From: Ceratodon purpureus | Lineage: Eukaryota; Streptophyta; Bryopsida; Pseudoditrichales; Ditrichaceae | DNA: 64,000 nt | Direction of reading: 5' to 3' | Assembly (NCBI GenBank): GCA_014871385.1 | Contig: CM026422.1 | Coordinates: 13,250,081-13,314,080, forward strand | Shown: piece by piece, positions 11,891 through 61,560 of the stretch | Position numbering within the stretch: the first letter of the stretch is position 1 | Layout of the letters: each line of letters begins with the position of its first letter | Notes under the pieces: model-generated | What the model was told of the DNA's origin: nothing | The model's input: only the letters and a program-made list of their open reading frames with translations | Database searches by the model: none | Translations under genes and position numbers: made by a program

Positions 11891-12261
<371 letters not shown>

Positions 12262-12462
12262 AAACTCCGGACCCAAAATAGGGTCGGCTTGAATACAGTG
12301 TCTGTTCGTATGGTTAATGAACCAATGCCCACCAGACAAAGGGCCACTAATACCAAACTACTCACCCCTTTCAAGAATAGACACTACAGTAACGGATTAG
12401 TAACTTGTAAAAAACTAAAAAGGTCTAAGAACTAAAACTAGAAAGCAAACATAAAAAGCAAA

Positions 12463-27637: not shown

Positions 27638-28030
27638 AATGGATAAGGCGCTCGCCTAGAGGCGGCTCCGCAATTAGCGGGGCCGCAACCCTAGTGAGAT
27701 CCACTTATAGCGGGATGCAAATTAGCACATAAAGATGGGTGATTTAAGCAAGCAATCGTCTGTCTTAAGAATTGGTATCCCTCAGGGACCAGTTTGCACT
27801 AGAGTGGAGCGGATTTCGAATAGTTCTGTAGAAGTTCGGTTTTCTAGTTGGATAGTCAGTGAGGAAGTGGGCGACGCATATCCCCAGGGGAATCATGCTG
27901 CCTCCCGAATCCCTCCAGTGAGTTGCAGCACCAGTCACACACAACAGAAGCACAGTACTCTCATTGCCACAGTAGTTACAGCACTTGCACGTACGACAAC
28001 AAGCATCATCATTCTCACGCCGACTGCAAG

Positions 28031-31000: not shown

Positions 31001-31300
31001 AGTGACACCACCAGCCGGTGCTGGATCTCAGCCTTCATTCAAGAAACCACAGCGGACAGTTCTTACCAAAGTATCAAGACTCTTCTCTGGAGAAAGACAC
31101 CGCCCACCATAGCCGATATGATCCTTGAGATCCCCAAGGGCGAAATCCTTGATGATCAACACGACATCGACAATTGGCCACAGATGTTCGACCAACCTGC
31201 TGTAGCATATATTCCACTCTCACTAGTAGGCACAGCACCCAAACGGTCCAGGAATGGTTTTAGTTCCACTAGCTCGGGCTCACATACATCCAATGAGTAG
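28031..31300 (+). pseudogene. LINE ORF1: RNA-binding protein with CCHC knuckle
   Basis: The frame from ATG 28031 to TAG 31298 is interrupted only by TGA at 28643 and TGA at 28688. Both could be old CGA codons, or the first part could be a separate 204-residue ORF followed by an 861-residue ORF from ATG 28715. The 861-residue part holds a proline-rich low-complexity segment, then a DUF4283-like region (about 29400-29900, with FFEVHFTEEAG and YPIWVQIRNLP). The zinc knuckle CERCGQVDHAVSQC is at 29909-29950. A long disordered stretch and a folded C-terminal domain (about 30640-31200) of unknown type follow. In plant LINEs this protein binds the element RNA. Its stop overlaps the start of ORF2. 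Confidence 0.75.
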
Positions 31301-36437: not shown

Positions 36438-37163
36438 TGCTCCGACAACCCACGACATCCCCAGGCACCATCACGCACCACCACATGATCACCACAGGTT
36501 CAATTGGTTGCCCGAACATCCACCACAACATCGCCAACAGCAACTCAGCATACAACATTGACCAACACAACCTTCCCAGTACCTCCATCAATCCGAGATC
36601 CAGACATGGCGTCCTGCAGAAGCCATCGAACCCCAGGCAAATATGTTTCCAATTAAGTAGGTGAAAATTGCCAGTTTATTTCCACTTAGGGATCAACACT
36701 GGAAATAGCAAAACCAAAACGGTGAACGGTAACGATGAGATAGACCCACTAAGAGTTCCCGCCACACATCACCTACGCCGTACTAAAGAAGAAGTCCAAG
36801 TCCCACACTACAGTAGGAAACAGCAGGGCAAGGTAAGTCCCCTCCTTAGTCTTCTGAATAGAGTCTCGTAAATAGTGCTCAAGTTGCTATTAATTACTAT
36901 GATACCGACGTCTAACCGATCAGAGTGACCACAAGTATAAGCCTAAAAAATGTGACTATCTGCTAGTGTATCCACACATACTAACCAGCAGGGAACCTCG
37001 AACTCACGCACAAACACCCTCGGGTAACCTGCAAGCAAGGAAGATCCAAGACAATCAATATAGACAGGAGACTCACGCAACGAAACAAAGCAAAGGACCA
37101 AGAATCAAACCCCAAACTCACATTGGACAGCTGCCTCGCCCCTGGACTCCAAAGAGGTGAGTA

Positions 37164-42154: not shown

Positions 42155-43099
42155 CTATTCATCTGCATCTACTCCCGCTGTGCCACTTGGTCCCGCTCCA
42201 TCGTCCAGCGTCAAGCTGCGCCTGGCTCTCGTCCGTGTTCGCCGGAATGGGCCATCACTTTCACTGAGAGAACGCAAAATTTGCGAGTTCCTCAATTCTC
42301 TCAATGTACGCAATGTCTGTGGAGAGTGTTCCTCCAGAAGAAAGTCAACAGCCTCATGTTTGAAAATTAACTTCCACTCCGAAAGAGACATTTGGACTGC
42401 ATCACGGGCGGTCAAAGACATGAATTGACCTTCGAGGTCTGTAACCAATTCCCCGTCCTTGTTCCATATGAGGCCTTTTGGGTGATTACCAAGTTGGAAC
42501 TTCCTATGCTTCGTATCCCAGTATCCATTCAAAGTCTGATAGAAGAAATTTCGTTTCCCTTGGTCCTCCTTCTTTGATCCAATTATCTTCTTTGCCACCC
42601 TCACAATCTGATTGGGGTCATCCTCCCATCCCAACTCGTCACTTACATTGCTCTTGAAGACCGAGTGAGTCTGGGCCCGCCAACTCCAAATCAAATCTTC
42701 CCCCCACATGTTGCGGTACTGTTCACCTGGTGTGTTTTCGGGATTTTTCTCATGGCTTGGTGGCATGTATGGAGTGAGTCCAAAAACCTCGTACAAGCGT
42801 TCATGGAACGGGGATTTGCACACCGGGCAAAATCTCCTTACCAAAAAAATGTTAATTAAACACATAGGATGGAACATGTGGGTACATGATCCAACTGCCC
42901 ATCCACCCTCAGGACCAAATGGATTTATACACACAGGGCATACTTTTGAACCATCCATCACCCACGGTTGAGGATTTGGCCAAAGCTTTCTGCTATTAAC
43001 TCCTTCCTTCATTTGAAGATCATGGCACGAAGTTGCGTTTACATCGAAATTCAACTTGGCCCAATCTATGAGTTCAGGATTCGATTCTTGCTTTGCCAT
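42155..43099 (-). CDS. RING-H2-like zinc-finger protein, single exon
   Basis: The frame from ATG 43099 gives 314 residues; an in-frame ATG five codons upstream (43114) is equally possible. The open frame runs on to 43318 through a repeat-like sequence and should not be coding there. The RING is near residues 45-100: CPVCINPFG, then SCTHMFHPMC and RRFCPVCKSPF, giving C-x2-C, C-x-H-x2-H-x2-C and C-x2-C. The next 150 residues form an acidic and aromatic domain I cannot name, and the last 60 are Arg/Leu-rich ending in DADE. The likely role is an E3 ubiquitin ligase. It has no stop or frameshift, unlike the RING genes at 15-18 kb. It lies between the minisatellite and a GAGCG-rich motif shared with the 59.7-kb locus. 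Confidence 0.7.
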   Translation of the reverse strand: MAKQESNPELIDWAKLNFDVNATSCHDLQMKEGVNSRKLWPNPQPWVMDGSKVCPVCINPFGPEGGWAVGSCTHMFHPMCLINIFLVRRFCPVCKSPFHERLYEVFGLTPYMPPSHEKNPENTPGEQYRNMWGEDLIWSWRAQTHSVFKSNVSDELGWEDDPNQIVRVAKKIIGSKKEDQGKRNFFYQTLNGYWDTKHRKFQLGNHPKGLIWNKDGELVTDLEGQFMSLTARDAVQMSLSEWKLIFKHEAVDFLLEEHSPQTLRTLRELRNSQILRSLSESDGPFRRTRTRARRSLTLDDGAGPSGTAGVDADE

Positions 43100-43179
43100 G
43101 GTATCTGGATACATATCATCTGCGTTAGTCCATGAAGTGAGGCCAAAATTCCTTCGTCTGTTGTGTTGGGGGAAAGTTC

Positions 43180-43292
43180 GTACGTGAGCGGAGAGCGTAG
43201 AGCGGAGAGCGGTGAGCGCAGAATGAAGAGCACAGAATTGACAATTAGCAAAATTTTCAAAAGCAAAGTAGACCCTATAACCGTGGAAAATT
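43180..43292 (+). repeat. GAGCG-rich dispersed motif, copy 1
   Basis: The motif begins TACGTGAGCGGAGAGCG, repeats AGAGCGG and GGTGAGCGCAGA, continues with GAGCACAGAAT and ends GACCCTATAACCGTGGA. The same ordered words occur on the minus strand at 59667-59863. Each copy points away from a neighbouring intact gene. It may be the end of a nonautonomous mobile element. Confidence 0.6.
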
Positions 43293-43431
43293 ACTAAATT
43301 AAGGCTTAATTTTGACACTTTTTTTAGGAAAAGAGTATATTACCGTGGAAATCAGGGTTATCTCTGGTAAGAATTTATTACGTTTGTTCTCTAAGATACA
43401 AATTAGGGCTGATGTCATGATGACGTCATGC

Positions 43432-44540
43432 ATACATTCCTTTAGATTTGTCATGGGTTTAGGCAAGATACAATGATCAGGCGTTCAGTTTTAGATGAAA
43501 CAAATAATTCTTACATAGGATTATGTAAATGCACAAGGAAAAAAACAAATATCACAGAACATAAAGGAGGCAAGGTTTGAAAACTTCCTAGAATATTTCA
43601 AAATTCGTGTATAATATCTTGACTGCTGAAACCAAGATATACCTTGTCAGAGTCCTTGTCTTCATCGAAGAGTACTCTCTCTTGCTAGGCAGCGAAGCAT
43701 CTTCATTTGAGTGATACAAGTAGGAGATTTTCATCATGAAACAGCACTTGGTAAGCTGGGTTCCAGAGAAGGAGGTCACTCTTGGTTTCTTGAGCTTGTT
43801 TCTAGGTGGCGTATTAGGATAGTGACACAGTCCTTGGCATTCTGTGCTGTATGCGAAGGTAGCGATGGAGTTCGGGGGGGTCAATCTGTAGGCTTGCGTG
43901 GAACGTTTTAAGACTACAACAATTTAGTGTGTTGCGCGATGCCGAAGGTGTGTAATGCGAGATCGAGGAGGACGAGAGCGGCTGTAGGTTTGCCCCCAAA
44001 GGCACCGGCGAGTTATGAGGAGCTGCGGCCGTGGCTGCTGGAGGTGGAGCGCGCCAGGGAACGAGGCATGGACCTGCCACCGTTTAGGCACATCGGAAGC
44101 CTCCATGTTGGTGAAGGTGAATGGCGTTGGACAGTGCTTTGTACCAATGAGCTTCTCCGTATTATGGAGTTGTCCCTAATCCCGTATCCCTTGCTATCGA
44201 ACGTCGATGAGAATCCAGTTGTTCAGCTGCCCGAAGTGATCATATCGGATGGCGAAACTTGCTGGTTTGATATGGACAAGAGTTGGACTGTATATCCTCC
44301 GAAGGATTAGTACTGTGAACTCTAGCGGGGTGTTCGAATACATTCCTTTAGATTTGGTCATTTATTGGATCTAGATACGAGTATTCCAGCACGATGGTTT
44401 TAGATAATCTAGACAATTCTAGGAATAAGAGAACTCGAAACCAACTAAAACAAATGGTCTTAAAAGTTCGTGGAATATTTCAGAGTTCGTGTACAATAAT
44501 GGAGTAGCAGAAACCAAGATGTACACCAAGTCAAGAATAG
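43432..44540. repeat. pair of diverged direct repeats flanking a small gene
   Basis: About 43432-43640 and 44337-44540 share ATACATTCCTTTAGATTTG, then further along AGAATATTTCA or GGAATATTTCA, TTCGTGTA and GAAACCAAGAT. The copies are perhaps 65-75 percent alike and point the same way. They flank the 123-codon gene at 43939. They could be ancient LTR remnants or a segmental duplication. Confidence 0.5.
43939..44310 (+). CDS. small hypothetical protein, 123 residues
   Basis: The ORF starts at ATG 43939 and ends with TAG 44308. The N-terminus is basic (ARSRRTR), followed by YEELRPWLLEVERARERG and a mixed region with several Trp (GEWRWTVL, ETCWFDMDKSWTVY). There is no membrane helix or zinc motif, and I recognise no family. 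The composition is protein-like. It may have an upstream exon, since the sequence before the ATG is also open. It lies between two diverged direct repeats, which could mean it travels with a mobile element. Confidence 0.45.
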   Translation: MPKVCNARSRRTRAAVGLPPKAPASYEELRPWLLEVERARERGMDLPPFRHIGSLHVGEGEWRWTVLCTNELLRIMELSLIPYPLLSNVDENPVVQLPEVIISDGETCWFDMDKSWTVYPPKD

Positions 44541-44824
44541 GTAACATGGCTAAGGAAATGTGGGATTTTGAATGAGTAAAATATATATAACAGCGCAATA
44601 TTATTTTTGAGCCTTTCTTTTGTAACATTCCATTCTTCATATTATATTTTGAGCATTACAGTTGTGACATTTCATCCTTTACAAACACGGAGACAAAATG
44701 GAAATGAGAATCATAACAAGTTTAGGTTTAGGGTAGTAGAGTAGACGAAGGATTACCCAAAGAACTCCAATTAAATCAAATCAAAGCAAATGAAAACAAC
44801 AATAGACCGAAGCCTCCTTCAACT

Positions 44825-47800
44825 TCACAACATGCTACAGTCGCTACTTTCACTCTCAGAACTAGATGACTCTGAATCTCCTTCTACCGCCTCGTCATCG
44901 ACGAATAGAAGGGCTCTGGGATCAAAAGTAGTTGGCCGACTAGGAACATATGTAAGGGCTCCAGATTGAAACGCCTGTGCTAAGTCCTCTGCGTAGTCCG
45001 GAAGTATGAAAGGCTGAATCGGGCTGGAATGAAGACGCCACGATGGAGTGGACACTGCACTTGGCACACGTGGCGGTGATGCTGAAACTACTCTGCAATA
45101 GAGAACCGACTGTGGTTACATCGAGTACGTAGAGCTGCAAAGAGAAGTAATGCTTGGAGAATTTGAACGTAGAATAGAAGACTTACACCACTTATCAGGT
45201 CTTGGTCTCTTTGGAGGCGCTTCGCCTGCTGCTGCCGGCCTTGGATGTTTAGGAGGGCCCATGGCGGATGGTTTGAGAAGGGCGTTGAATATGGCTTCGT
45301 CCTCCTCAAAAGCGAGAATGTGACGACCAATAGCCTGGGCAGCCTTGATGGAGGCTCCTGAAACTCGGAGAGATACAAAGAAATGAGAAACTGTGGTAAA
45401 AACGAGAGGAATAATTCAGCAAAGATATGCATGAATAGTTACCTGTCCCAGCATTCCAATCAACAACTATGTCGCCGGGCTTTGACAGCTCCTCAAGTAT
45501 GCCCTGCATCATGTCAATGGATTTCTCCCTTGCGCCTCTCCACGGCACCTCCCCATTCATGAGCTGCGAATCCACATCGGTGAAGTTGAAAATGGCATCA
45601 CTGACGGTAATGTTAAGGAGCCCATGTATCAGGTCTTCCTTCTTCGTCTGGAAGGAGAAAGTACTGCGACTACGAACGTAGACGCGAATCCAGAACCGCA
45701 TAGTCTGCAGTCAAGCAAAACTAGTGAGTAAAATTAAGCGGAAGGGTTATCAATCAGTAAAGGGAAGGGTATGTTTAGGGAAATTACCAAGTTCTCGGGG
45801 TTCGTTGGAGAAGTCAGGCCGAGTACATTGACACCCCACCAGTCCTTGAACAGCACGTATCCACCATTAGCAGCTTCTTCCTCGATATCCTTAGCCAGCT
45901 TCTGATCAGTGTTGTAGATGAGGCAGATGGCACCATCTTTCTGCAGGAAATCATCTGCAAAATGGAAGATGTCGTACAAATAATCCTTGTAGCGAGAGTT
46001 CCAAGGCGGAATACTCGTGGGGGGAACGGAAACGGATGGGACGGGAAGATTCTCAGGGATGTCGGCAATGATCAAGTCGACTCCCAGATGGTCCTCTTGT
46101 TTGCACCGGTCCCCAACTATGTTTTCGCGGCCTGCTCCAAACTTGAGGAAACAAGAAAGCAGAGTTAGTAACTACATAGCGAGTAGAGGTGGCAGAATCC
46201 ATTAAATGTCAAAATATAGGAACAAACCTTGCGAATGAAGTCTTGAGTCTTGATCCAATCCGGGTCGCCACCTTTTCTCTCCTGTCTCCTATTTCGCCGT
46301 AACATGGAATCCACAGATGAGTTGAAGACGGAAACTTGTGTGGAAATCGAAGCTCCAGCGGAAGAAGTTGGTTGGGGATATAGTTTGGCCTTCCTCTGCT
46401 CAATGAGACCTCTGGTGATCTCCGAAGCACTGATCGAGGAAGGACCCGGTGAAGAAGTTGAAGGAGGCTTCGTAATCACATTACCTGGAGAGGGCTCTGG
46501 TGCCGTCTGCTCTGGAGCGGAAGACGCCGCACCAGTTTGCTGTGAAGCTTGAGTATGTGATCGCAAAGATTTAAGTCGCCGAGCTCTTCCATTCTTCGGT
46601 GGAGGAGCTGATGATTGGTCTTCAGGGCCTCCGTCATCCTCAGTAGCATCCACCGTTTCTTCGGCCACTACCTCACCGGCATCATGTAAAGTCTTGATGT
46701 CCACCTCAGAGTCAATAGTGAAACCGCGAAAACAATCAAGATACCAGCATCCCTCAAGCAAGTGAGGAGCTTTGTACCTTTTCAACTGTTGTGGAGAATA
46801 GATACACTGGTCCGAGGTTTTCGACGTCCAAGAACTGAAGTACTTAGGGAGCTGGTGAACCTTGACGGCGCCTTTTGGAAGAAGCTCTCGTTTGAAGTAC
46901 CTAAGGAAAAAATTATGTACAAGGTTAGTTACCGAGAAAAATATGAAGCCCATTATGTAAGGATACTGTGATGAAGTTAAGAATCATACCGGTAAGTAAC
47001 CCGCTTAACAACGTCTGCAGTTCCAGGAAATTTTGCGAAATTGGACTTCTTGTCGAAAGCCTTTTCAGCCTTTTTTCCAATGAACGTAGGGAAGGCCTTG
47101 TCCCACAAAAGAATACGTGAACTCTCCACATAATCGCCCGGCTGTTGGACATCAGGAAATGCCATCCAATTTATATCGAGTTTCTCTGTCTTGCAAAGGT
47201 CTTCGACCGCATTGACGACAGCCTCCTCCAACTGTAATAAACAAATCATTTCAGTAGCGACGAGGTAAAATGCAGACAGAAAAGGAAGCAACGTGTAAAT
47301 GGAATGAAGACGTTTGTAAAGAAACTATACCCCTGCCCAAAATGAAGCCTTGTTCAACCAGAGCTCGAGGTCCGTTTCCTTGAATTCGAGGGGTAGAAAT
47401 CTGTAAGATAGTCTGGAACTCGGAGATGAGTTCCACCACCTTAACCAGCGAGCCTTGTACTTGGCCTCAACTGCCGCTGGCACAATCTTCTGTAGCTTGT
47501 CAAGGGTCATCTCTGGTTTTGAGAACTCACTGAAATGCCGATTGATCTACACGAATACCGATCGTTTTAGACAATATGAGATGCAAAATAAGAATGTAAT
47601 GATACGAAATATTTTATAGAGCATCAGAGTTACCTCATTGAGGAAGTCGTCACCGTTTTTGGGATTCGCGATAGCAAGGTACTTCGTGAAGTCCTTCTTC
47701 TTGATGGATTCGACCATCCTTTCAGCTGCCTCATTCATGACATCCCAAACTGCACTTGCAGTTCGGTCCGCCTCTGGTGTCTTCTCCTCATAGGCCTTCG

Positions 47801-50800
47801 CTGCTTCATCCGAGGCCGCTGCGATTTCTCGCTGTTCCAAAAATCAAACAAGTTTTAAAAAGTGTAACACTTTATCAGAGTATAAATTGGGACGAGGTGA
47901 ATGACGTGAAACTTACTCGGTACAGAAATGCGATGAATATTCTCGTTGTCAAAGGGAACCACGACGGATTAGGGGGCTTGTGTTTCAAACACGTATCATA
48001 TTCTTCTGCACTCAGAAGGTCTTTAAACTCCTCCAACTTCATCATTCCGAATGAGCGGATTCGAAATAGTTTTGCTGGTAGGTTACTCTTCACGTGGTCA
48101 TTCTCCGTCGACCTGAATATCAAATCAAGAACTTAGAAGAAGTATTCTTAATAATGGATACAAAAACTTTTTAATGGACAAACATATACAAATACAGAAG
48201 TACGTACCAATTAATGTCATGCATGGCATGTAGGAGACTGCCCACATGGCCGCGTGGATCAAGTACAATGCAATGCACTGATATGTGCCATGATGGGTCG
48301 TCCGCATGATGCTTGTTGATATGCCGGAGCCAAGCGAACAGGCGATGATTACCTTCCCAGACAAAGAACATCTTGTTGGAGAATTGCATCCAGTCTTCGT
48401 CGCCACGGATCTCATCTTCAAACTGCTCACTGGCGGCCCTCCATAAAGGGCTCCAAGTAGCCATGACATCCGCCGTGACATCCTTTGTGAGCTCTTCGTT
48501 GTTGTACATGGAGATGTACATAACGCGGTCCCCATCTCTATATCCCTTCACGAACTCCCGCTCCAAGTGCTGCACTCCCATTTCGCCCACTGGTCTAACC
48601 TTCGCCATGGAAACCATCCTGCAGAGGGGGATCATCATGCGCGACTTCTTCTCTGGTTTAATCCTGAGCTTGTTGATGACGCCTATGGAGTCCAACTTGA
48701 ATTGTTCCCGATGCTGGAATTCGCCATCAAATGCAGTCTTCAAGTTTATCGGACAAGACGGTTTTATCGGCGCATCTTGTGTTTGAGTAACCTGGCAATC
48801 GGTGTGACAATTATTACTCATAGAGCAGCCAAGGAATGTCTTGCAAGGAAGTGAAATAATATAAAGTAAAGGTACAGCATCATATCATAATTATTATAGA
48901 TACTATCTACGTGATGCACGCCTATAATACTCCTTAGACTGTCTACAGTTCCAGTGGCGGCGCCTCCTCCAAAATCGCCTGGTCTGTTGGACTGGGCAAG
49001 GCAATATTGCTGGAAGGGCAAAGACCACATGGGCAGGCCTTCTCACTCTAATAGGCGAGGAAGGAGAGGGTGGAGACATCGGCGGTGAATCCCGAGGAGG
49101 ACTGCTGGGGATGTATGGCGGGGAGGTAGGCTCATAGACAGGTGAGGTAGGCATGTAAACAGGTGAGGTAGGCATGTACTCTGGAGATTGCACCTCGAAA
49201 GGAATATTACCTAAAACTACGGGGTTTGGTACATCACAAGTACACAAAGGCTGATCAAATGAATCCGAGAGGTCGGAAACATTGATTACTGATACAATGG
49301 AAGTTGCGGACATCTCGGGAGCATCAGAAGAGACCTAAAATATGAGAAGAAGGATATACATTAACGACTCAAAAATAAGAAGGAAATAAACCAAAAGTGA
49401 TATAAGCCGATAATGTAAAAAATTAAAATAATCAATTACCTCTGTTTCAGCAGGTGTTGGGACAAGACCACCGCTCTCCATATTATCCTGAGAGGATTCC
49501 TACATGATAAACAACGAAATTACCATCAGAGGCCAGTGTAACACATCACCAAAAAAAAAGCTTCAGCATGGCATCATCGGCCCTGCTCTCGGCAGCAGGG
49601 CCTCCGCACCGCCCCCTCAGTGGAGGCTCCCGACCAAGTGTCGGGGCCGACACTTGAGTGGAGGCTGCCTTCTTTCAAAAAAAAAAAGCTTGGGCATGGC
49701 ATCCTCGGCCCTGCTCTCACCAGCAGGGCCTCCGCACCGCCCCCTCAGTGGAGGCTCCCGACCAAGTGTCGGGGCCGACACTTAAGTGGAGGCTGCCTTC
49801 TTTCAAAAAAAAAAAGCTTCGGCATGGCATCCTCGGCCCTGCTCTCGGCAGCAGGGCCTCCGCACTGCCCCCTCAGTGAAGGCTCCCGACCAAGTGTCGG
49901 GGCCGACACTTGAGTGGAGGCTGCCTTCTTTCAAAAAAAAAAAGCTTCGGCATGGCATCCTCGGCCCTGCTCTCGGCAGCAGGGCCTCCGCACCGCCCCC
50001 TCAGTAAAGGCTCCCGACCAAGTGTCGGGGCCGACACTTGAGTGGAGGCTGCCTTCTTTCAAAAAAAAAAAGCTTCGGCATGGCATCCTCGGCCCTGCTC
50101 TCGGCAGCAGGGCCTCCGCACATCCCCCTCAGTGAAGGCTCCCGACCAAGTGTCGGGGCCGACACTTGAGTGGAGGCTGCCTTCTTTCAAAAAAAAAAAG
50201 CTTGGGCATGGCATCCTCGGCCCTGCTCTCGGAGGCAGGGCCTCCGCACCGCCCCCTCAGTGGAGGCTCCCGACCAAGTGTCGGGGCCGACACTTGAGTG
50301 GAGGCTGCCTTATTTCAAAAAAAAAAAGCTTCGGCATGGCATCCTCGGCCCTGCTCTCGGCAGCAGGGCCTCCGCACCGCCCCCTCAGTGGAGGCTCCCG
50401 ACCAAGTGTCGGGGCCGACACTTGAGTGGAGGCTGCCTTCTTTCAAAAAAAAAAAGCTTCGGCATGGCATCCTCGGCCCTGCTCTCGGCAGCAGGGTCTC
50501 CGCACCGCCCCCTCAGTGGAGGCTCCCGACCAAGTGTCGGGGCCGACACTTGAGTGGAGGCTGCCTTCTTTCAAAAAAAAAAAGCTTCGGCATGGCATCC
50601 TCGGCCCTGCTCTCGGCAGCAGGGCCTCCGCACCGCCCCCTCAGTGAAGGCTCCCGACCAAGTGTCGGGGCCGACACTTGAGTGGAGGCTGCCTTCTTTC
50701 AAAAAAAAAAAGCTTCGGCATGGCATCCTCGGCCCTGCTCTCGGCAGCAGGGCCTCCGCACCGCCCCCTCAGTGAAGGCTCCCGACCAAGTGTCGGGGCC

Positions 50801-53703
50801 GACACTTGAGTGGAGGCTGCCTTCTTTCAAAAAAAAAAAGCTTCGGCATGGCATCCTCGGCCCTGCTCTCACCAGCAGGGCCTCCGCACCGCCCCCTCAG
50901 TGGAGGCTCCCGACCAAGTGTCGGGGCCGACACTTGAGTGGAGGCTGCCTTCTTTCAAAAAAAAAAAGCTTCGGCATGGCATCCTCGGCCCTGCTCTCGG
51001 CAGCAGGGCCTCCGCACTGCCCCCTCAGTGAAGGCTCCCGACCAAGTGTCGGGGCCGACACTTGAGTGGAGGCTGCCTTCTTTCAAAAAAAAAAGCTTGG
51101 GCATGGCATCCTCGGCCCTGCTCTCGGCAGCAGGGCCTCCGCACCGCCCCCTCAGTGGAGGCTCCCGACCAAGTGTCGGGGCCGACACTTGAGTGGAGGC
51201 TGCCTTCTTTCAAAAAAAAAAGCTTGGGCATGGCATCCTCGGCCCTGCTCTCGGCAGCAGGGCCTCCGCACCGCCCCCTCAGTGGAGGCTCCCGACCAAG
51301 TGTCGGGGCCGACACTTCAGTGGAGGCTGCCTTCTTTCAAAAAAAAAAAGCTTCGGCATGGCATCCTCGGCCCTGCTCTCACCAGCAGGGCCTCCGCACC
51401 GCCCCCTCAGTGGAGGCTCCCGACCAAGTGTCGGGGCCGACACTTGAGTGGAGGCTGCCTTCTTTCAAAAAAAAAAAGCTTCGGCATGGCATCCTCGGCC
51501 CTGCTCTCGGCAGCAGGGCCTCCGCACCGCCCCCTCAGTGAAGGCTCCCGACCAAGTGTCGGGGCCGACACTTGAGTGGAGGCTGCCTTCTTTCAAAAAA
51601 AAAAAGCTTCGGCATGGCATCCTCGGCCCTGCTCTCACCAGCAGGGCCTCCGCACCGCCCCCTCAGTGGAGGCTCCCGACCAAGTGTCGGGGCCGACACT
51701 TGAGTGGAGGCTGCCTTCTTTCAAAAAAAAAAAGCTTCGGCATGGCATCCTCGGCCCTGCTCTCGGCAGCAGGGCCTCCGCACCGCCCCCTCAGTGAAGG
51801 CTCCCGACCAAGTGTCGGGGCCGACACTTGAGTGGAGGCTGCCTTCTTTCAAAAAAAAAAAGCTTCGGCATGGCATCCTCGGCCCTGCTCTCGGCAGCAG
51901 GGCCTCCGCACCGCCCCCTCAGTGAAGGCTCCCGACCAAGTGTCGGGGCCGACACTTGAGTGGAGGCTGCCTTCTTTCAAAAAAAAAAAGCTTCGGCATG
52001 GCATCCTCGGCCCTGCTCTCGGCAGCAGGGCCTCCGCACCGCCCCCTCAGTGAAGGCTCCCGACCAAGTGTCGGGGCCGACACTTGAGTGGAGGCTGCCT
52101 TCTTTCAAAAAAAAAAAGCTTCGGCATGGCATCCTCGGCCCTGCTCTCACCAGCAGGGCCTCCGCACCGCCCCCTCAGTGGAGGCTCCCGACCAAGTGTC
52201 GGGGCCGACACTTGAGTGGAGGCTGCCTTCTTTCAAAAAAAAAAAGCTTCGGCATGGCATCCTCGGCCCTGCTCTCGGCAGCAGGGCCTCCGCACCGCCC
52301 CCTCAGTGAGAACCCAACAACCCTAAACCTAAAACGCACAAAGAACCCACAACCCAACATTATTGCCACCCAACTCGAAGACCGAAAGCCCAACAAATCT
52401 CTGCATCCAAACGTCACAGGTGAAGGAGGACTCACCTCGTTGGCGATGTTGTCGCCATCCTCCTCCTCGCCTTGGCCGTGTTCGTCCTCGTCCTCACCTT
52501 GCCCGTCTTCCTCCTCGTCCTCACCTTCCTCGTCCTCGTCCTCACCTTGCGCGTCTTCCTCCTCGTCTTCACCTTCCTCGTCCTCGCCCTGAGGCTCCTG
52601 ATCTGCCTCATCTTTCTCCTGCTCAACTTCCTGGTGCTCGTCTTGTTCACCTCGCGGCACCTCCTCTTCAACGGCCCCGACCGCCATCATTACCTCCTCG
52701 GCCATCTCCCTTGCAGCTCCCCGACCTCCTGGTTCCCTCCCCCCTCCACGCCGTCCGCGGCCCCGACCCCGACTCCGACTCCTCCCAACCAGCTTCACAG
52801 AGTGTCGTCTCTCAGATCTATGACCTGCCTCGCGCCCAACACCACGTCCCACGCCCCTTCGACCCCCCCTTAAATGACCGCCACGGGCGGCAAGCTCTCG
52901 ATCGACGGCCTCCCCTTCCTCCATAATTGCTCGCCGAGCTCTCGCAGCTCCTCCTCGCCACTCCCCAGATCCTCCTCCTGCTTCTTCTCCACTCACTTCT
53001 TCTCTCAATCCTCCACTTTGTTTAGCAAACCTAGAACCTCCTCCCTCGGTCCACTTCGTCAAACGAAAAAATTTATGTTAACTACAGAGGAGAATTCTAA
53101 AATTTACTGTATGAAAACTACGTCTATCAATTCGCGCAACATAGAGAACTACAAATGTCATCGGTTACTACTATTAGTATACTACTTAAGATAATAACAA
53201 GAGAAACGAAGCTATGACGTTTAAAATTGAATATTAAACATGCATCATTAAAAAGTAGGTAAGTAACTTACTTCAGTAGATAGTGGATCCTCTGTGGATC
53301 CTACAGGTCTTTCTTCTGGAAGTGACTCGTTCATGCCAATCGATGGCTGCGGAGACTGTGGTGTCTCTAAACAATTGAGCTCTAAAGCTTCCGTCCTCTC
53401 ATTACTTCTATCGTCCATGTTTACTACACAATAGTCCTCAACCGTGACATCTAAAACCTCCTCTTTAATTTCCTCTACAGACTCTAGAATGAGATTACGA
53501 ATGCTACAAAATTTAATTGCAGAAGGTAACCCAGCTCCTGGAACCTTCAGAGGTGCACTCAAGATGTTGCCTTTCGACTTCTCCTTTCTAAGTGATTCTC
53601 TCCTCTTCCTCGCTCTCCTATTTGTAAAATCTGTACTATATGCTTTTCTTCTAGGTTTAGGAGTGACATAAGTGGAGGGAGCTGACCCTCCACTCTCCTT
53701 CAT
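44825..53703 (-). CDS. CTD-like / ParB-like / DNA N6-N4 methyltransferase fusion, 14 exons
   Basis: Exons: 53703-53272, 53053-52436, 49499-49440, 49334-49047, 48791-48208, 48112-47917, 47831-47634, 47546-47331, 47231-46990, 46900-46228, 46141-45788, 45704-45443, 45357-45187, 45090-44825. All introns are GT-AG and the joined frame of 1519 codons has no stop. Order: basic N-terminus; long Glu/Asp-rich and Arg/Gly-rich region; YMPTSPVYMPTSPVYEPTSP, like the RNA polymerase II CTD; a ParB/sulfiredoxin-like module with FVWEGNHRLFAWL; helical middle; Ser/Pro linker; then GVDLIIADIPEN, DGAICLIYN, REKSIDMMQGILEELSK and PGDIVVDWNAGTG, with AIGRHILAFEEDEAIF after it. These are the ordered motifs of beta-class N6_N4 DNA methyltransferases, but the catalytic DPPY is DIPE. 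Exon 2 start and the last splice pair are the least certain. Confidence 0.8.
49549..52308. repeat. 128-bp tandem repeat array, about 21.6 copies
   Basis: Nearly identical 128-bp units (127 where the A run is one shorter) fill most of intron 2 of the methyltransferase gene. Each unit contains a perfect palindrome, AAGTGTCGGGGCCGACACTT, a hairpin GGCCCTGCT...AGCAGGGCC and a run of 10-11 A before AGCTT. Variant positions (TCGGCAG versus TCACCAG; AGTGGAGG versus AGTGAAGG) recur in patches. The TCACCAG form is always followed by AGTGGAGG, suggesting spread by unequal exchange of blocks. The array has open frames on both strands only because the unit lacks stops; these are not genes. Confidence 0.97.
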
Positions 53704-53764
53704 GTGTCTAACTAACGATAGATCTCTCCTCACAATATAGCTCTCCTCCTAACTCTCCTTCTTC

Positions 53765-53773
53765 TTATATATC
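53765..53773 (-). promoter_or_regulatory. TATA box of the methyltransferase fusion gene
   Basis: TATATA followed by AGAAG on the minus strand lies about 63 bases before the ATG at 53703. The position suits a start site some 30 bases downstream and a short leader. The motif is clean and sits in otherwise mixed sequence. Confidence 0.55.
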
Positions 53774-53819
53774 CCTAATCTCCAACCCCTCTGGCTCTGC
53801 CCTAATAAATTAACTTATA

Positions 53820-54330
53820 TTTAAACTCTGTAAATTAATAAAAAGATAAAAATAATTCCAATTTGAATTAAAGCTAATGAGATCAATCTATATTGGAAGA
53901 GAATAAATGCAGCCCACTAAATATTAAAAGATTTGAATTAAGTACTGCAATACTTGTATTAAATATGGATGCAAGTGACGGCTCACTCTAATCTCACTCT
54001 TAGTCTGTCTGTCCAGTAATTTATTATGAAAATAGAGGAACTCTAACACTGAATAAAATATAGAATTTGAATAAATCATATGCTTGCATTAGTCCTATAA
54101 ATATAAAACTAATGCATGAATTTGATTAATTCAAATTCTATATATTTATTGTTTTAAATCCAGAAAGAGTAGACGGCTCTTTTTAATCCAATCACACCCC
54201 ATAAAATATAGAATCTGCTCCACCATTCAAAAACGCGAAGCAATATTCTAAAAATCTTCCTACATATTTATGGGCCTGCAAAAAGCAACATCATAATTAG
54301 TTAGCGCCGTCTCTCTTTAATCATACATTC
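53820..54330. other. AT-rich intergenic region between divergent genes
   Basis: This is the shared upstream region of the minus-strand methyltransferase gene and the plus-strand transposase. It is AT-rich and contains a long imperfect palindrome at 54060-54141. No ORF of interest is present. Confidence 0.5.
54060..54141. repeat. imperfect palindrome with about 36-bp arms
   Basis: TAGAATTTGAATAAATCA on the left pairs with TTGATTAATTCAAATTCTA on the right, and GCATTAGT with ACTAATGC closer to the loop. The arms are roughly 85 percent complementary around an 8-10-bp AT loop. It could be a foldback element or a regulatory hairpin between the two divergent genes. Confidence 0.7.
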
Positions 54331-54500
54331 GTTACGTTGCAGAATGAATCATTACCTAGTCGTCCACATGGACATTCCAATTTGAATAAAATGATCAACA
54401 GCGATGCATCATTCCTCTCACTTCGCTCTCGCGATACTGCTTTGCCAGTACACTCAGTCTTCTTCCTTCTCCCTCTAGTATATTTGAGTTGCCTGCGAGT

Positions 54501-57500
54501 ATGGGGATGGTCTGTCTGTACGCCCAAGGCATGGGCATCCCTCTTAGGTTTCGCGTAGATGACGATGGTCTAGCTACGGTGTCCTCTCTTCGCCTCAGTC
54601 TCAGATTCCATTTTCGTGAGGATTCCATCAGTATAGAGGAGGAGATCTTTGATGACGTTACTGCCGAGGTTACCCACACCCTCGGGCAACCTTCAGTGAG
54701 AGATGAGAACAACATTTTGCAGTGGAGACTCCTCCCTGGATCCTATAGAGTCTACGGTCTTACTGATTCTCTGATGGCTGCATCCACTGAGATCCTCACC
54801 CCCCCGTCGCTCTTCTACTTGCACAATTCAGACTCCCTTACCTCGTGATGTCAAAGTCAAAGTCGAGCCTGGTACCGAGACTTCAGATGTAGAGAAACCT
54901 CCTCTGACCGTCATATCTCTCTCTTCTGATGACGAAGTCAGTCCCGTCAAGTTCGTGCCTAAGGTCCATGCAGATGCTCCTCCTTCCAATGTCTCTCCTC
55001 CATTGTCCCAGGTCACAGTTAGCATTGTTCCGCTCCTTAAAGAGATTGCTAAGACGCGTGGGTCCAAAAACATTTTGAAGAAGATAGACTATTCCACTAT
55101 TAGACACGAGAGAGTAGAGTACTTGCCTGCGAAGTTTGATGGTCCGGTTCTTTTTGAGTTGCCCCCAGCTGCTGCAGGTTCCTCTAAGCTCGCCGCCAAG
55201 TCTATGCAGGGAATGGACAAACGATACGACGGACACTTGTGGACCAAGACCATCACAACAAACATCAAAAACGACTTCGGACTCTCTTTTCGAAGTTCCA
55301 CCTGCGTCGGATGGCTCCGGTGCAGCAACCAGGAGTGTGACTTCCTGAAGCGTGTTCCCAAGATCTTCGAGGTTAACGAGACTGAGTTCGAAGGCTGTAC
55401 CCTGCAAGCTTTTCTCATGGATCAGCCTCCTCCACCTGACTCCACGCTAGTGTGCAAGGTATGTAAAGAACCTCCATCATGTGTAGCTACATGCGAGGCT
55501 AAGATTTATTACGTTGTGGGCAAACCGAATCAGACCAGAGCTTGTATTCACATAGGAACACATGATCATCCAGTGAAAGTAGGAGACTACAGAGACTCTA
55601 AAGCAGAGATTAGTAGCTTAATAGAAGAGCAGGTAGAGATGAACAACAAAGCAACGAAGAGCGCCGTTGTCTTGGAGGCGAGCAAACTCCTCATCGGAAG
55701 CTACCTTCTACAGCCCGAGGATGCACCACCGAGGAAACTGACGATGGAGGAGCTGGTTCCCGTTCTGGATCGTTGCAAAGACATGGCGTCGCCCAACATC
55801 CGAAACAAAGTCGCCACCTTCAAAAAATTCGTAAGGTACGGAATCATGGACGGTATCACAAAGCTCCGTGGTAACAGTCTCTGGGCGTATGTCCAAGAGA
55901 ATAGGTTTCCTGGACAGGGATCGATGCGTGACAAAGTCTTTGTCTTCAAGATGTCGGAGGTCGGGCCGGGCAGTGGTGTCGACTTGGTCAGCCGTATGCA
56001 AGCTGGTGGCGATTTGGAGAACGCATGGATCATGTTCGACCATGTCAAACGCGTCAAAGATTGGTCGACGATGGCGTGCCATGTGTACGACGCCACCTAC
56101 TGCCGCGTGATGACAATCGCCACTTGCGACATGCAGTCCGAGGACACGGAGGCCCAGCTCGTCTTCTGGAAAAACCTGAACCTGGTCATGGAGATCAATG
56201 GCGTTGCAGCGCCGAACTTCAAGGGGTTCATGGCGGATAACGCACAGGCCAATTGGAATGCAGTGCGGATCCTTTACGGCAATGGCAACAAAGAGGACCC
56301 AATGGAGGACCGGGAGAGGTCGTGCTTGTTCCACTGGACTCAGAACATGGTGGCGTATACGCAGAAGCACTTCCCCGAAGAACTCTGGGAACAGCACAAG
56401 AAGATGTGCACTCAGTACAAGAATGCGACCAGCATGGCAGAGGCGGAAACTCTGTACCACGCGTTGCGAGCATGGTGGGCATCCACCGGGGTCGTTGGCG
56501 AGAGCGGGCTCATCAAACTCGATCAGTGGCTGTCATTCTGGCACCACCGCTTCCGCCAGTGGGGGGGATTCATGACCGAGGTATTCTCTATGCACTCTGT
56601 TTTGATGTTTTTCATACTGGTTTCCTAGCCCTAACCTACAAAAGTCTAATCCGTGAATCTAACGGCACCTACTGTCACACCTGCAGAAATTCACGAAAGA
56701 AGAACTCACAGAGATGCCTACCTGTAACCTCGCCGAAACAGTTCACAACAAGTGGCTCCAAGCTTCAGGAAACAACGGAAACGACCTCTACGTTGCTACC
56801 GTGGACGATTTCGTTCGGGCATTTCTACAGGTTGTCAACTACTACCAGTTCCTCAAAGGTGACGTCGGCGGAACAGGACCGTCCAAGAAGGAACTCAGGC
56901 TCCGGATGGCTGAACGCAACGCGAAGAAATGGGGAAATCCTACACTGCTCGACAAGCCCATGCTCGATATGCCAGGCGCGGATGAGTTCTGCACCCGTCA
57001 GCCTATCATGCCTGGAGCGGAAGTCTTTGGTTCACAGAAGCGAAAAGCCGACGTCCTTATCGGAGCTGACGAGGAGTCTCATCGCCCGGATAAGACCAAC
57101 TTCTCACGCCCAAGAGGCCCAAGACGTGCCGTCAGGGCTCGCCCTATGCAGATGCCTGTCATTGTGGAAGACGACTCCGAACACGACACCGAGGTACAAC
57201 GTACCCAACCTCCTGCCGAGGAAGTTGATTCCCCTTTACCTTCACCTGTGAACAAGGGCGGCATTCGCCATGTCAACGCGGTTGAAGAAACCAAGGTGGA
57301 CGTGAAGGAGTGGCACATTTCGAGACTTCACAAACTTTCTGCGAAGTGTTGCTGGGCCCAAAGAGCTGAAACGAAGAAGAAGTGCACTGAGAGAATCGTC
57401 AGGGGGCCCCATTGCACAGCTGCACCGACCTACACTGGGCTCTGGACTAACTATCGCAGGAACCTAGTGGAGAAGACTGAGTTCTTCTTCTGCTCCGACG

Positions 57501-58180
57501 ATATCGAGCGTTGCGTGAAAGGCTCTAAGCGCAAGTGGGTAGCACACTACTCAAAGGACCAGGAATTCCCCTCCATTCCAGAGGTCTGGCCAGTGAAACT
57601 AGGTACTAACCTAAAACTTACTGAGATTCTTGCCCTCGAAGCAGCGGGCTTTCAACTTCCGCAGAAGAAACCTGTCTCCCCAAGACGCCTCTTCTCCTCT
57701 GCCCCGCCCCCTGCAAATCTCAGCTCGCTGCCAGTCCCTGCAGACGCTGACCGCTACCCAGGGAAGAGAGACGGCAAGATGGTGAAGCGCACTGCCACTC
57801 GTCCCAATCAGGCGCAGCGACTCTCCATGGGCTCCTCCGAGTCTCTTAAAGCGCGCCTCCGTTCCGTCACCATGATACCTGAGCCGGGCCACGGTTGCAT
57901 CATTGGGCTGGATTCGGGCGTCGCTCCACACATCACACGGTACCAGATTACCATCAGTTCTTACCCTGGTTGCACTTGCCCAGCATTCAAGAAGACGATG
58001 ACTACGTTCCGTGGCAAGACTCTGTTCACGTATTGTAAGCACGTATACTACATACTCTTGAAGGTCTGCAACCGTGATCCCGAAGCCGAGCTTTTCATCC
58101 ATGCGCCTACCTTTAGCTTCAACGAGGTCAAGCTTCTCCTAGAGGGTGGAATCTTGCGTCACCCCTTGGCGAAGAAGTAG
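54501..58180 (+). CDS. MULE-type transposase with SWIM zinc finger
   Basis: The well-supported exons are 54832-56580 and 56687-58180, joined in phase 0 (donor GAG|GTATTC, acceptor CACCTGCAG), giving about 1080 residues. A first exon from ATG 54501 (MGMVCLYAQGMGIPLRF) is likely, spliced by a short intron into the acceptor TTGCACAATTCAG, but its donor is uncertain. The protein has an acidic SUMO-motif-like stretch (VISLSSDDE), a WRKY/GCM-like zinc region (CSNQECDFLKR to HIGTHDHPV), a MULE transposase core (YDATYCRVMTIATCD, GFMADNAQANW, RSCLFHWTQNM) and a C-terminal SWIM finger CTCPAF...YCKHVYYIL (about 57970-58050). It should cut and move Mutator-like elements. The frame is intact apart from the unsettled start. 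Terminal inverted repeats were not found by eye. Confidence 0.8.
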
Positions 58181-58434
58181 GTAGCCCTCCTACTTTACAA
58201 CTGCCATTTCCACAATGGCCATTTGTCACGTAGTGAATGATTTTAGTAATATCCCATGTACTAAGTCAGCAATATAGAAGCTGTATTGACTTTTTCATTA
58301 TATTAAGGGCTTTGTCGTTCACATTAATTGCATTCTATTTCAATACAATCTATCTTGAACAAGTGCACTATATACTTCGTATTCCCTGACATGTATCTTT
58401 TATTACAGCAAACATATACTTGTTATTAGATGTC

Positions 58435-58887
58435 TCAATCTTCGAACCTAACACGTTTAGGGTTGCCCACTACACTATCAGCAGGACTGCCAGCCGCTGA
58501 CTGTACTACAGGACAAACTACATTCGCATTCACTTTCGTTCCCACACTTGGCAAATGTCCTTGGTATGATCGTTTCAGCAATGGCCCACCTCCCCGCCTC
58601 CGATTAACTGATTCCCTGGAATAGGTTCCCCTTGGGATCTTTCCAACCTTCGAGTATGCATGTGGTTGCAAAGGCACATCTGCGTCCTTCTCTAGCACTA
58701 TGATTTCATCCGAATTTTCTGAACGTGGAGGGTCAGCTCTTACATCCGGTTGGACGTCAACATCCGTTGTCGAAGGACGCCCTTGGCTGTTGGCCATCAC
58801 CTCTTCTTCGTCCTCCACCTCAACATATGGTTGAAATGGACAAACATCGTCAGCAAGTGAAACAACAATATCTCTGACGTCTTCCAT
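58435..58887 (-). CDS. small acidic ORF convergent to the transposase
   Basis: The frame from ATG 58887 gives 150 residues. It begins MEDVRDIVVSLADD, has an acidic patch, a SUMO-interaction-like block (DEIIVLEKD) and a basic C-terminal half (NRRRGGGPLLKR ... PKRVRFED). No family recognised. It sits 255 bases beyond the transposase stop and points towards it. In maize MuDR a second gene is convergent to the transposase gene, so this may be an accessory gene of the same element. That link rests on position only. Confidence 0.5.
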   Translation of the reverse strand: MEDVRDIVVSLADDVCPFQPYVEVEDEEEVMANSQGRPSTTDVDVQPDVRADPPRSENSDEIIVLEKDADVPLQPHAYSKVGKIPRGTYSRESVNRRRGGGPLLKRSYQGHLPSVGTKVNANVVCPVVQSAAGSPADSVVGNPKRVRFED

Positions 58888-58899
58888 AGCTGCTGTCCC

Positions 58900-59660
58900 G
58901 CACTACGGAAAAGAGCTTCACATAACACCAACACAAAAGAGGCAGAGACATTCCCTACTCTTATCTTAAATATCCGCGAAGAAGATGCTTGGCGCCCTTG
59001 AAAATTGGCTATTCATTCATTGAGAAGTTGTCATCCTCTTAAACCGAATGGAAAAAGATGAAGGTTTAGCAGAGGTCATTTAGCATTTAAATTTTTTTTT
59101 TTAAATTAAAGAATGAAAAAAAAAAAAAAACAAAAAAAAAAAAAAAAAAAAAACATTTATATAAATTGAAATTAAAAAGATTAAAGAAAAGAATAGCAAT
59201 ATTTAAAATGAAGGTTGAAAATAATATGAAGAGGATTAACAAATTGAATGTGAAAATAAAATGATTGTGAAAATAAAATGAAGGAGAGAATTAAATGAAA
59301 GGAGGCTTTTGACCCCTCTAACAAGATAGATAGAATAAAGAAAATTTTATGAAAAATACATGACAAATTTCAAAAAAATTAAAAGAAAATAAAAAAAAGG
59401 AAAAAGGCGTGTAGACTATGGTGGATGAATTCTACCAATGTTAAGAAAATGTTACGAGATTAAATGTTACTTGATCCCTGTTCAGAGGTTCAATACCAAT
59501 ACATTTTAAGTAGTAATTTGCATATAAATTTAAGGAGATAAGGGGAATTACTGTATGCCTGAACTAGTAAGAAGGAGCTGGAGCATAGTAATTGGTGCAC
59601 GTTAAAAAATTAATCACCAAGAAAAGAGAAAACGAACTACAAATTCAATGAAAATACTGT
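58900..59660. other. AT-rich sequence with poly(A) patch
   Basis: No gene. A long interrupted A run lies near 59108-59153, followed by repetitive GAAAATAAAATGA-like words (59220-59300). The purine bias of the plus strand is strong throughout. Confidence 0.5.
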
Positions 59661-59666
59661 AATTAG

Positions 59667-59863
59667 TCCACGGTTATAGGGTCAATAAAAATACTAAAAT
59701 TAGTAAATTTCCCAAAATATATTTAGAATATTCGAATCTTCTAATTTTATGTTTTATTTTAAGTAAAAAAAGTGCTATTTTTAGGTTCTGTCCCCCATTC
59801 TGTGCTCTCCGCTCTCCAAATCTGCGCTCACCGCTCTCCGCTCTGCGCTCTGCGCTCACGTAC
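59667..59863 (-). repeat. GAGCG-rich dispersed motif, copy 2
   Basis: Minus strand: TACGTGAGCGCAGAGCG, more GAGAGCGG words, GGTGAGCGCAGA, GAGCACAGAAT and, after an AT-rich insertion relative to copy 1, GACCCTATAACCGTGGA. It begins immediately behind the stop codon of the coiled-coil gene and points away from it. Confidence 0.6.
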
Positions 59864-59866
59864 AAG

Positions 59867-61249
59867 CTACCCTCTGTTGTGTTGCAAGTACGATTCGTCG
59901 ATCTTCTTGAACTCTAATGCAATTTGGCGACCGCGATCAACGCTGAGAATGGTTGCCACTTTCCACTCGTAGTATGCTTTAGCAAACTTAGAAACAAGGA
60001 GCCGCAAATCATTATTGGCTCTCTTCAATGTCTCCACTTCTCCGGTTAGAGCATCGGGTGGAAATGACAAGGAATCTTGACTTAATGGTCCATCGATGTC
60101 CACATAGGGTCGCGGGTATGGGGCTGGTGGAGGCAATATCACTCCAACTCGTCGTCGTTTTGCTGGAGTGGAAATATTCTCCAACACACCGGCCGTTGCA
60201 ACATCAACCGTGTTGTTGATGTAAGATTCATCCACCAACATTGGATCTTGAACTACAGGTATATCATTGGCTTGAGAAGACTGAGGTCTTTCTCGTTCTT
60301 GCAATTGATTGCGCAAATCTGATATTACTGCATCTTTTGCTGCTGATTCCAATCGTAGTTTTCGGATGGTCTCTTGTAACTCTGCAATGAAGCCATCCTT
60401 TTCTATTAGCTGTAATTGTAACTCCCCGACCTCCTCGGTCTGGTTAGATTGGTCATTTCTAACTAGAACCGGCATGCCAAGAACCATCGTAGGTTCAGTT
60501 CCGACCACGTCCAAATTAGCTGCCGTATTTGGATCGTTTTCCATGAAGATGTTGTTCGCATCGTCGTGAGGTTCTATGACGTCCGCTGGATGGTTCATTG
60601 GAGGCTCTACAGCCATATTTGCTGATGCTGCAATTCTACGTGGTGGACGTTCTCCACGACGACCATCGGAATCAGAATCTGGTTCAGACTCTGCTGTATC
60701 AGGCTCCCGCACTTGTGTTTTTTCCTTCATTTTTTTCCCCAGGCCACCATCTGCGTATTTCCTTTGTTTGGGAATGTCACGCTCTGTCGGCGCCCTAACA
60801 CTCGGCGTGGATTTGATGGTGGACCAATCCACCACTTTGTGAAGCACCACCTCAGCATACACCATTCTGCAAATGAACAATGGTACTTCATTGCGTTCAA
60901 CACATCGTTGCTTGTATAGATGCTGGTAAACTTGTATAGAACGTTCAACAAACTCCGCATTCAAGCAATAATAGAGGTTAGCCTTGTCTGAGATCCTGTG
61001 TTTTCTGTGCCGATCATGTGGAAATATTTTTGTGATGTGGCACCACTCAATGAATTCCACGCATGTGGAATATTTCCACGGTTCCGGCTCATCTTGCCAA
61101 CCTCTAAATGCCAACTTTGTGGGGTTGTTCAGCACGTGGAGCCGCTTCTTCATCTTCTTGCCACCACGCTTCCGTTCACGATCTCTGATTTTCTTCTTTT
61201 TGGCCTTGGTGAGTGGCCTTTCCTCCGCCGGATCTGGGTTTCCCTCCAT
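59867..61249 (-). CDS. coiled-coil protein of unknown function, 460 residues
   Basis: A single intact exon runs from ATG 61249 to TAG 59867. The N-terminus is strongly basic (KAKKKKIRDRERKRGGKK, a likely nuclear signal), followed by a folded-looking region with several Trp and Cys (YSTCVEFIEWCHITKIF) up to about residue 140. A basic/acidic linker comes next, then a Leu-heptad coiled coil at about residues 270-310 (ELQLQLIEKDGFIAELQETI), a Pro-rich stretch (ILPPPAPYPRPY) and a second helical segment at the end. I recognise no family. It lacks stops and shifts, unlike most multicopy genes in the window, and is bracketed by the GAGCG motif and a G-rich minisatellite, as is the RING gene at 42 kb. 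Confidence 0.6.
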   Translation of the reverse strand: MEGNPDPAEERPLTKAKKKKIRDRERKRGGKKMKKRLHVLNNPTKLAFRGWQDEPEPWKYSTCVEFIEWCHITKIFPHDRHRKHRISDKANLYYCLNAEFVERSIQVYQHLYKQRCVERNEVPLFICRMVYAEVVLHKVVDWSTIKSTPSVRAPTERDIPKQRKYADGGLGKKMKEKTQVREPDTAESEPDSDSDGRRGERPPRRIAASANMAVEPPMNHPADVIEPHDDANNIFMENDPNTAANLDVVGTEPTMVLGMPVLVRNDQSNQTEEVGELQLQLIEKDGFIAELQETIRKLRLESAAKDAVISDLRNQLQERERPQSSQANDIPVVQDPMLVDESYINNTVDVATAGVLENISTPAKRRRVGVILPPPAPYPRPYVDIDGPLSQDSLSFPPDALTGEVETLKRANNDLRLLVSKFAKAYYEWKVATILSVDRGRQIALEFKKIDESYLQHNRG

Positions 61250-61560
61250 CGTGGTGTACTGGTAAAGTTTTCTGTGTTAAAAAACACACCAACTCCTCAA
61301 AACTTCCTCCAATTGATTTTAAAATTTTCCTCCGTGGTTGATTATGGTATTGTAACTATACTTTGTGGCCCACCCAAGTATTCAGCAATAAGCCACCATG
61401 AGGTAGTTTAGGGCCCGAATTCCGGGATGAGCGTACAAAATAAGGCTGAAAGCTGGTACGTGGCGTTGTCAAAATACTGTAGACCCCACCCAAGTACTCA
61501 GCAATAAGCCACGGTGAGGTAGTTCAAGGCCTGAGTGCCAAGGTGGAGCTAAAAAAAGTG
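61250..61560. other. upstream region of the coiled-coil gene
   Basis: Two related blocks occur, CCCACCCAAGTA.TCAGCAAT followed by AAGCCAC.{3}GAGGTAGTT, starting near 61368 and 61488. They form an imperfect 120-bp direct repeat. No other feature is visible. Confidence 0.5.

Follow-up and report, generated by a model that had tools for sequence, protein, structure and literature searches.

A ParB-like and methyltransferase-like fusion gene within a DNA transposon of the moss Ceratodon purpureus

Gene A and the element that carries it

A 64,000-nucleotide stretch of the Ceratodon purpureus genome (contig CM026422.1, positions 13,250,081 to 13,314,080; hereafter the window) contains a long, intron-rich gene, gene A, which appears to fuse a ParB-like module to a region resembling beta-class DNA methyltransferases and which lies within a DNA transposon. 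Joining open frames on the minus strand at GT-AG sites yielded 14 exons of 4557 nt in all, or 1519 codons including the stop, with no internal stops, and phase is kept throughout exons 5–14. An initial annotation, made from the sequence alone, had described the same fusion; our own splice model arrived at the identical number of exons and codons, and every peptide quoted in that annotation was found in gene A. Over 1058 amino acids (aa), gene A shares 68% identity with a paralog at C2:12.70 Mb, which has one stop. Exons 5–14 are the solid part of the predicted gene.

Gene A sits in a class II, cut-and-paste DNA transposon, which it shares with a second, divergently oriented gene, gene B (Table 1). 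The element is delimited by terminal inverted repeats and by a perfect 10-bp target duplication, a match that grows to 12 when the last two bases of the element, TC, are included. The longest inverted repeat listed between positions 37000 and 64000 (48 nt, 92%, arms 16.6 kb apart) brackets both genes. Comparison with a paralogous C2 element (96% identity over 408 bp) showed homology ending exactly at 43169. Moreover, when the flanks were joined without the element and one copy of the duplication, this empty site, reconstructed from the window flanks themselves, contained a minus-strand open reading frame (ORF) of 801 codons with the junction at codon 464. The inverted repeats, the target duplication, the in-frame empty site and the family copies described below led us to reject a stand-alone host gene, as which gene A had at first been read. 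The same annotation had placed it in a region full of 'methylation scars'. However, the observed/expected CpG ratio of the element, 0.77, lies above that of the window as a whole (0.70) and that of the left flank (0.63), which speaks against any special depletion within it.

Table 1. Features of the transposon and its flanks (window coordinates)
Feature	Position	Strand	Basis
Whole transposon, 16,706 bp	43169..59874	.	ends marked by paired inverted repeats and duplication copies
Target site duplication, left, TGTTGTGTTG	43159..43168	+	perfect 10-bp match to 59875-59884
Target site duplication, right, TGTTGTGTTG	59875..59884	+	perfect 10-bp match to left copy
Left terminal inverted repeat, starts GGGGAAAG	43169..43222	+	47/54 identical to reverse complement of 59821-59874
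Right terminal inverted repeat	59821..59874	-	pairs with left repeat, 47/54 positions
Interrupted flanking ORF, N-terminal part	59885..61276	-	empty-site ORF
Interrupted flanking ORF, C-terminal part, RING finger	42158..43168	-	Pfam zf-RING_2 at its cut-off; empty-site ORF
Gene A, 14 exons, 1519 codons with stop	44825..53703	-	splice model; exons 5-14 backed by paralogs
Exon 1	53703-53272	-	splice model
Exon 2	53053-52436	-	splice model
Exon 3	49499-49440	-	splice model
Exon 4	49334-49047	-	splice model
Exon 5	48791-48208	-	splice model
Exon 6	48112-47917	-	splice model
Exon 7	47831-47634	-	splice model
Exon 8	47546-47331	-	splice model
Exon 9	47231-46990	-	splice model
Exon 10	46900-46228	-	splice model
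Exon 11	46141-45788	-	splice model
Exon 12	45704-45443	-	splice model
Exon 13	45357-45187	-	splice model
Exon 14	45087-44825	-	splice model
Stop ending exon-4 open frame; would close 513-aa product of exons 1-4	48903-48905	-	conserved in paralog
Predicted ParB-like fold in exon 5, model residues 65-210, contains FVWEGNHRLFAWL	48210..48647	-	AlphaFold2 model
Methyltransferase-like domain, exons 11-13	45187..46141	-	Pfam N6_N4_Mtase; PDB profile matches
Motif IV position, DIPE replacing DPPY	46052..46063	-	alignments A1 and A4
Intronic tandem array (exons 2/3), 21.6 copies of a 128-bp unit	49551..52308	+	21 near-palindrome copies
Gene B, divergent from gene A, putative Mutator-type transposase, SWIM-like C-terminus	54390..58177	+	frames 54390-54845, 54775-56625, 56663-58177

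Family copies, relatives and selection

A genome search with PF01555, in which 150 of 772 candidates were scored, returned at least 32 places, the window gene not among them. All 23 places examined (20 with flanks and three short loci, L003, L005 and L007) encode the gene A family, and the ParB-like and methyltransferase parts occur together in 18 of 18 ten-kb loci chosen from the 32 places. An alignment guided by L019 covered 19 models, namely these 18 loci and the C1 copy: six core exons are common to 16 of the 19, and 14 of the 19 have no stop, stop codons being present in 5 of the 18 ten-kb loci.

Two members of the family, one at C3:20.0 Mb and one at C1:0.83 Mb, lie in a common 26.8-kb unit whose ends are abrupt and abut unrelated flanks. 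Identity between the two units is 95.1%, 95.6% and 92.4% in the best pieces and 84.9% and 89.0% in others. These elements have terminal inverted repeats of 43 bp (93%) and target duplications of 9–10 bp, read by eye as TCTACTTGAC (C3) and GGGCAACAC (C1), so that both hallmarks are present in all three fully delimited insertions (window, C3 and C1). The content shared by the window and C3 elements is confined to genes A and B, and this pair recurs on three chromosomes, in elements that belong to two diverged subfamilies. Gene B counterparts are present in both the C3 and the C1 element; identity between gene B and its counterpart in the corresponding position of C3 is 42% over 577 aa and 33% over 522 aa. 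At a further locus, L016, the start of gene B is matched weakly (E 4.6e-4) with the divergent orientation kept. Presence of gene B beside gene A was judged where the fetched stretch reached, that is, in the window, C3, C1 and L016, the other loci being too short. A 393-codon ORF of the C3 element (C3 composite 7155-8333, L037) has a C-terminus weakly like the RING part of the interrupted window ORF (32% over 59 aa, E 2e-5); it is perhaps cargo or a related gene.

Searched as a protein query, exons 5–14 of gene A at first returned no relatives. Profile searches of proteins then gave 180 relatives with A2, the profile of the ParB part (120 of them listed), and 40 with A1; one, P0128, is KC19_N032100 of C. 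purpureus. Weak prokaryote-like relatives (P0155–P0163) were obtained for the methyltransferase part only. Scans of viral_contigs with A2 and A1 produced no locus (103 and 36 unconfirmed pattern matches), nor did a scan of genome_contigs, run with A2 and not with A1 (96 unconfirmed matches). Thus, no relative that would trace the fusion to phages or bacterial mobile elements, as initially suggested, was found in viral_contigs or, for the ParB part, in genome_contigs.

The tree of ParB domains (104 sequences, 108 before trimming; midpoint rooting) splits into two clades, of which the one containing the window copy has 48 tips and support of 0.99. Both clades hold copies from the moss genome together with metagenome proteins. 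We estimated ratios of nonsynonymous to synonymous substitution rates (dN/dS) for 14 pairs of gene A copies by a simple counting method. All eight pairs of intact copies fall between 0.040 and 0.110, and the values for the six pairs that include a broken copy or one with a stop are 0.065, 0.143, 0.185, 0.230, 0.269 and 0.336; for the window and its paralog, dN/dS is 0.185 at dS 1.09. By this estimate, gene A is under strong purifying selection in the clade other than that of the window. The fusion proposed initially stands as one open, intron-rich frame with relatives under selection; the host-gene and phage-origin readings attached to it are not supported.

The two modules of the gene A protein

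The middle part of the gene A protein very probably folds like a ParB N-terminal domain. The AlphaFold2 model of the exon-5 region has a predicted local distance difference test score of 83.3 and a predicted template modelling score of 0.74, and the best 14 rows of a fold comparison were all ParB, Noc, KorB or PadC. Among the traits of CTP-dependent ParB clamps, a GNHR-type motif was the one observed, in 99 of the 108 ParB-domain sequences of the family. By contrast, the Pfam ParB_N profile matched none of seven family members and gave no matches across the genome. The ParB-like module described initially is therefore borne out by predicted fold, whereas none of the sequence profiles applied recovers ParB in this part.

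The C-terminal part is almost certainly a homologue of beta-class N6/N4 methyltransferases. The Pfam N6_N4_Mtase profile, a check proposed in the initial annotation, matched the joined exons 5–14 above cut-off (27.1 bits against 26.7) as well as 8 of 8 family members tested, and PDB profile matches of the domain include DpnA (E 3.8e-10) and CcrM (E 7.1e-7). Motif IV, however, reads DIPE in all 11 window-clade relatives that cover the site, compared with DPPY in all eight prokaryote-like relatives (one alignment). In the other clade it reads DQPF, DTPF or DQPY, and motif I, DLSASTGAS, is without the usual first glycine. Since the catalytic form of motif IV, (D/N/S)PP(Y/F/W), is absent from the window copy and from the other clade, we class gene A as a homologue and not as an active enzyme. 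The constancy of DIPE indicates that it did not arise by random decay, and a degenerate pseudogene was rejected on the same ground. In place of the DPPY of active enzymes, the subfamily of the window copy has DIPE, and it may thus act by binding and not by methylation. We consider it improbable that the window copy is an active methylase, and the DNA modification first envisaged for this gene is correspondingly doubtful.

Gene B, the intronic array and other features

Residues conserved in gene B include D439, D452, D488, C517..H520 and CNLxETVHNKWLQASGNN, and CxC..CxH is conserved in both copies. We take these D/D/CxxH and CxC..CxH residues to recall transposases of Mutator-like elements (MULEs) with a SWIM domain, although the Pfam SWIM profile itself scored 10.1 bits (E 0.64), under its cut-off of 19.6, and gene B had no PDB profile match. 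In the C3–C1 pair, two parts of gene B have dN/dS of 0.101 and 0.194. The target duplications of 10, 10 and 9 bp (window, C3 and C1) are inside the range of 8–11 bp given for MULEs (PMC6446971). Taken together, the element is probably Mutator-like.

A MULE profile marks 93 places in the genome, more than half of which, by eye, are on C6, a 110.5-Mb contig that is presumably the sex chromosome; the Ceratodon genome is put at 360 Mb, with U and V of over 100 Mb each (PMC8000587).

The tandem array within gene A holds 21 copies of a 22-bp near-palindrome, CAAGTGTCGGGGCCGACACTTG, 19 of them exact and two with one mismatch. The matching region of the paralog also has an array, of 171 bp x 20.1 (L034:1320-4762), but the two units have no homology beyond 13-nt matches. 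In addition, no tandem array was detected in the scanned C3 element stretches L013 and L030, and L016 has short tandem repeats only. An array as a general family feature was therefore rejected.

Elsewhere in the element, frames at 58438-58902 (-) and 43912-44310 (+) have no Pfam family at cut-off and no match in the C3 element. Outside it, the window contains frames like those of long interspersed nuclear elements at 27863-36434 (DUF4283 and reverse transcriptase; CpG observed/expected 0.62) and a long simple repeat at 11443-12383, which translates to SIYL repeats.

Interpretation and comparison with known systems

Given the delimited ends, the target-site duplication, the empty site, the two-gene plan on three chromosomes, the many family copies and the strong purifying selection in the other clade, we propose, with a probability of roughly 0.78, that a large Mutator-like cut-and-paste moss transposon carries gene A as an accessory gene, and that the head-to-head gene B encodes its transposase. 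This and the other odds expressed in words here (for the transposon, its Mutator-like nature, the fold, the homologue, activity and the binding role) are our own judgement. Several observations weigh against the proposal. Gene B matches no Pfam family at cut-off, which leaves its assignment as a transposase motif-based, and none of the MULE-profile places falls at a gene A/B element. The flanking frames are long individually (469 and 394 codons), so that part of the 801-codon ORF is expected anyway; the frame fits nonetheless.

Like MuDR and other Mutator-like elements, the moss elements have inverted repeats, 9–10-bp target duplications and an extra ORF beside the transposase, as well as a SWIM-like C-terminus, here putative. 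They differ in that gene B escapes the MULE profile, in lengths of 16.7 and 26.8 kb and in having a ParB–methyltransferase as the second gene; the available part of PMC6446971 mentions no accessory methyltransferase in MULEs. A functional parallel may lie with the VANDAL elements of Arabidopsis, likewise MULEs with an extra gene, which there encodes VANC. VANC carries DUF1985 and DUF287 domains (PMC5735166), neither of which is among the Pfam matches of gene A exons 5–14. It removes host methylation, whereas gene A has ParB-like and methyltransferase-like domains of putative activity. The sites targeted by VANC evolve by way of tandem repeats, which in some cases lie within introns of element genes (PMC5735166), and gene A has a 21.6-copy array in an intron; we offer this parallel as an idea, not as evidence of binding.

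N4CMT of bdelloid rotifers and the Marchantia N4-methylcytosine (4mC) methyltransferase are also eukaryotic kin of bacterial amino-methyltransferases (PMC8885841). However, both are host enzymes, the former with a chromodomain and the latter without an extra domain, whereas gene A is transposon-borne and has a ParB-like domain. The bacterial and phage beta-class enzymes DpnA and CcrM share with gene A the order of motif IV followed by motif I. They have DPPY, while the gene A family has DIPE or DQPF/DTPF, an altered motif I and a spliced eukaryotic gene. DIRS retrotransposons, which encode a Dam-like methyltransferase, are another case of a mobile element with a DNA-methyltransferase-like gene, but they are retroelements with a reverse transcriptase and a tyrosine recombinase, and their methyltransferase is of a different class. 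A literature search for a plant Mutator-like transposon with ParB and methyltransferase domains found nothing; most subscription papers and bioRxiv lay outside its scope, so this absence is weak.

Proposed role and alternatives

Two alternatives concern what gene A is. The stop that ends the exon-4 open frame and the frame before it are common to gene A and the paralog, with mostly synonymous differences, so exons 1–4 may also, or only, encode a separate 513-aa product. Such a separate element protein, with the ParB–methyltransferase made from its own upstream exon or by alternative splicing, is a serious possibility at slightly less than even odds. On the other hand, gene A and the paralog also have in common a phase-0 donor within exon 4 (AGA|GTGAGA) and the acceptor of exon 5 (CAG|GTTACT), and the fused 14-exon model stays open. 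Much less credible is an epigenetic function for the host, for example in writing 4mC in moss sperm, with the transposon context being an incidental gene capture. 4mC deposited by a methyltransferase of bacterial origin has been reported in Marchantia sperm (cited in PMC8885841), the liverwort setting that the initial annotation implied for what is in fact a moss, and the strong purifying selection would fit such a role. However, the gene pair recurs across subfamilies and chromosomes, the copies are dispersed and partly stop-bearing, and the Marchantia enzyme is, according to PMC8885841, without additional N- or C-terminal domains.

For gene A as a transposon accessory gene, we somewhat favor an element-directed DNA-binding role of the protein. 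Through its ParB-like domain the protein would load onto the DNA of its own element or spread along it, and the methyltransferase-like domain would mark or occupy this DNA. This could keep the element expressed or transposition-competent, making gene A a self-marking or anti-silencing factor with a role comparable to that of VANC. The active site of the DQPF/DTPF clade could have kept the ability to methylate an exocyclic amino group. For the DIPE clade, window copy included, binding of DNA and cofactor without classical catalysis seems more likely. Alternatively, the protein may be catalytically dead throughout, a purely structural DNA-binding protein of the transposon, such as a transposition cofactor or repressor. 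The altered motif IV of both clades and the missing glycine of motif I make this quite conceivable, but we lean away from it: the other clade still conserves D, P and F or Y at the fourth position, and the motif-I/C-terminal block still resembles active enzymes. At the bold end, and unlikely in our view, is a lineage of giant moss transposons, made up of two old clades that metagenome sequences also represent, with an epigenetic mark of its own. A ParB-like clamp, perhaps gated by cytidine triphosphate, would load at element sites (the 21 near-palindromes of the array, for example, as a parS-like center) and spread, and the methyltransferase would write 4mC or N6-methyladenine (6mA) that host silencing based on 5-methylcytosine can neither read nor erase. 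In the DIPE clade, the former writer would by now serve as a reader or blocker.

Work on plant transposons usually treats them as targets of DNA methylation. In the present case, a family of DNA transposons maintains under selection, as judged from the eight intact pairs, a gene that fuses methyltransferase-like and partition-protein-like parts. The case is also a warning against taking matches to beta-class methyltransferases in the genomes of mosses as evidence for 4mC or 6mA systems of the host. If gene A does write or read an unusual base mark, this would be a new route by which a mobile element evades or steers plant silencing. Our analysis points to a plant transposon that maintains an enzyme of its own for binding, and possibly marking, DNA.
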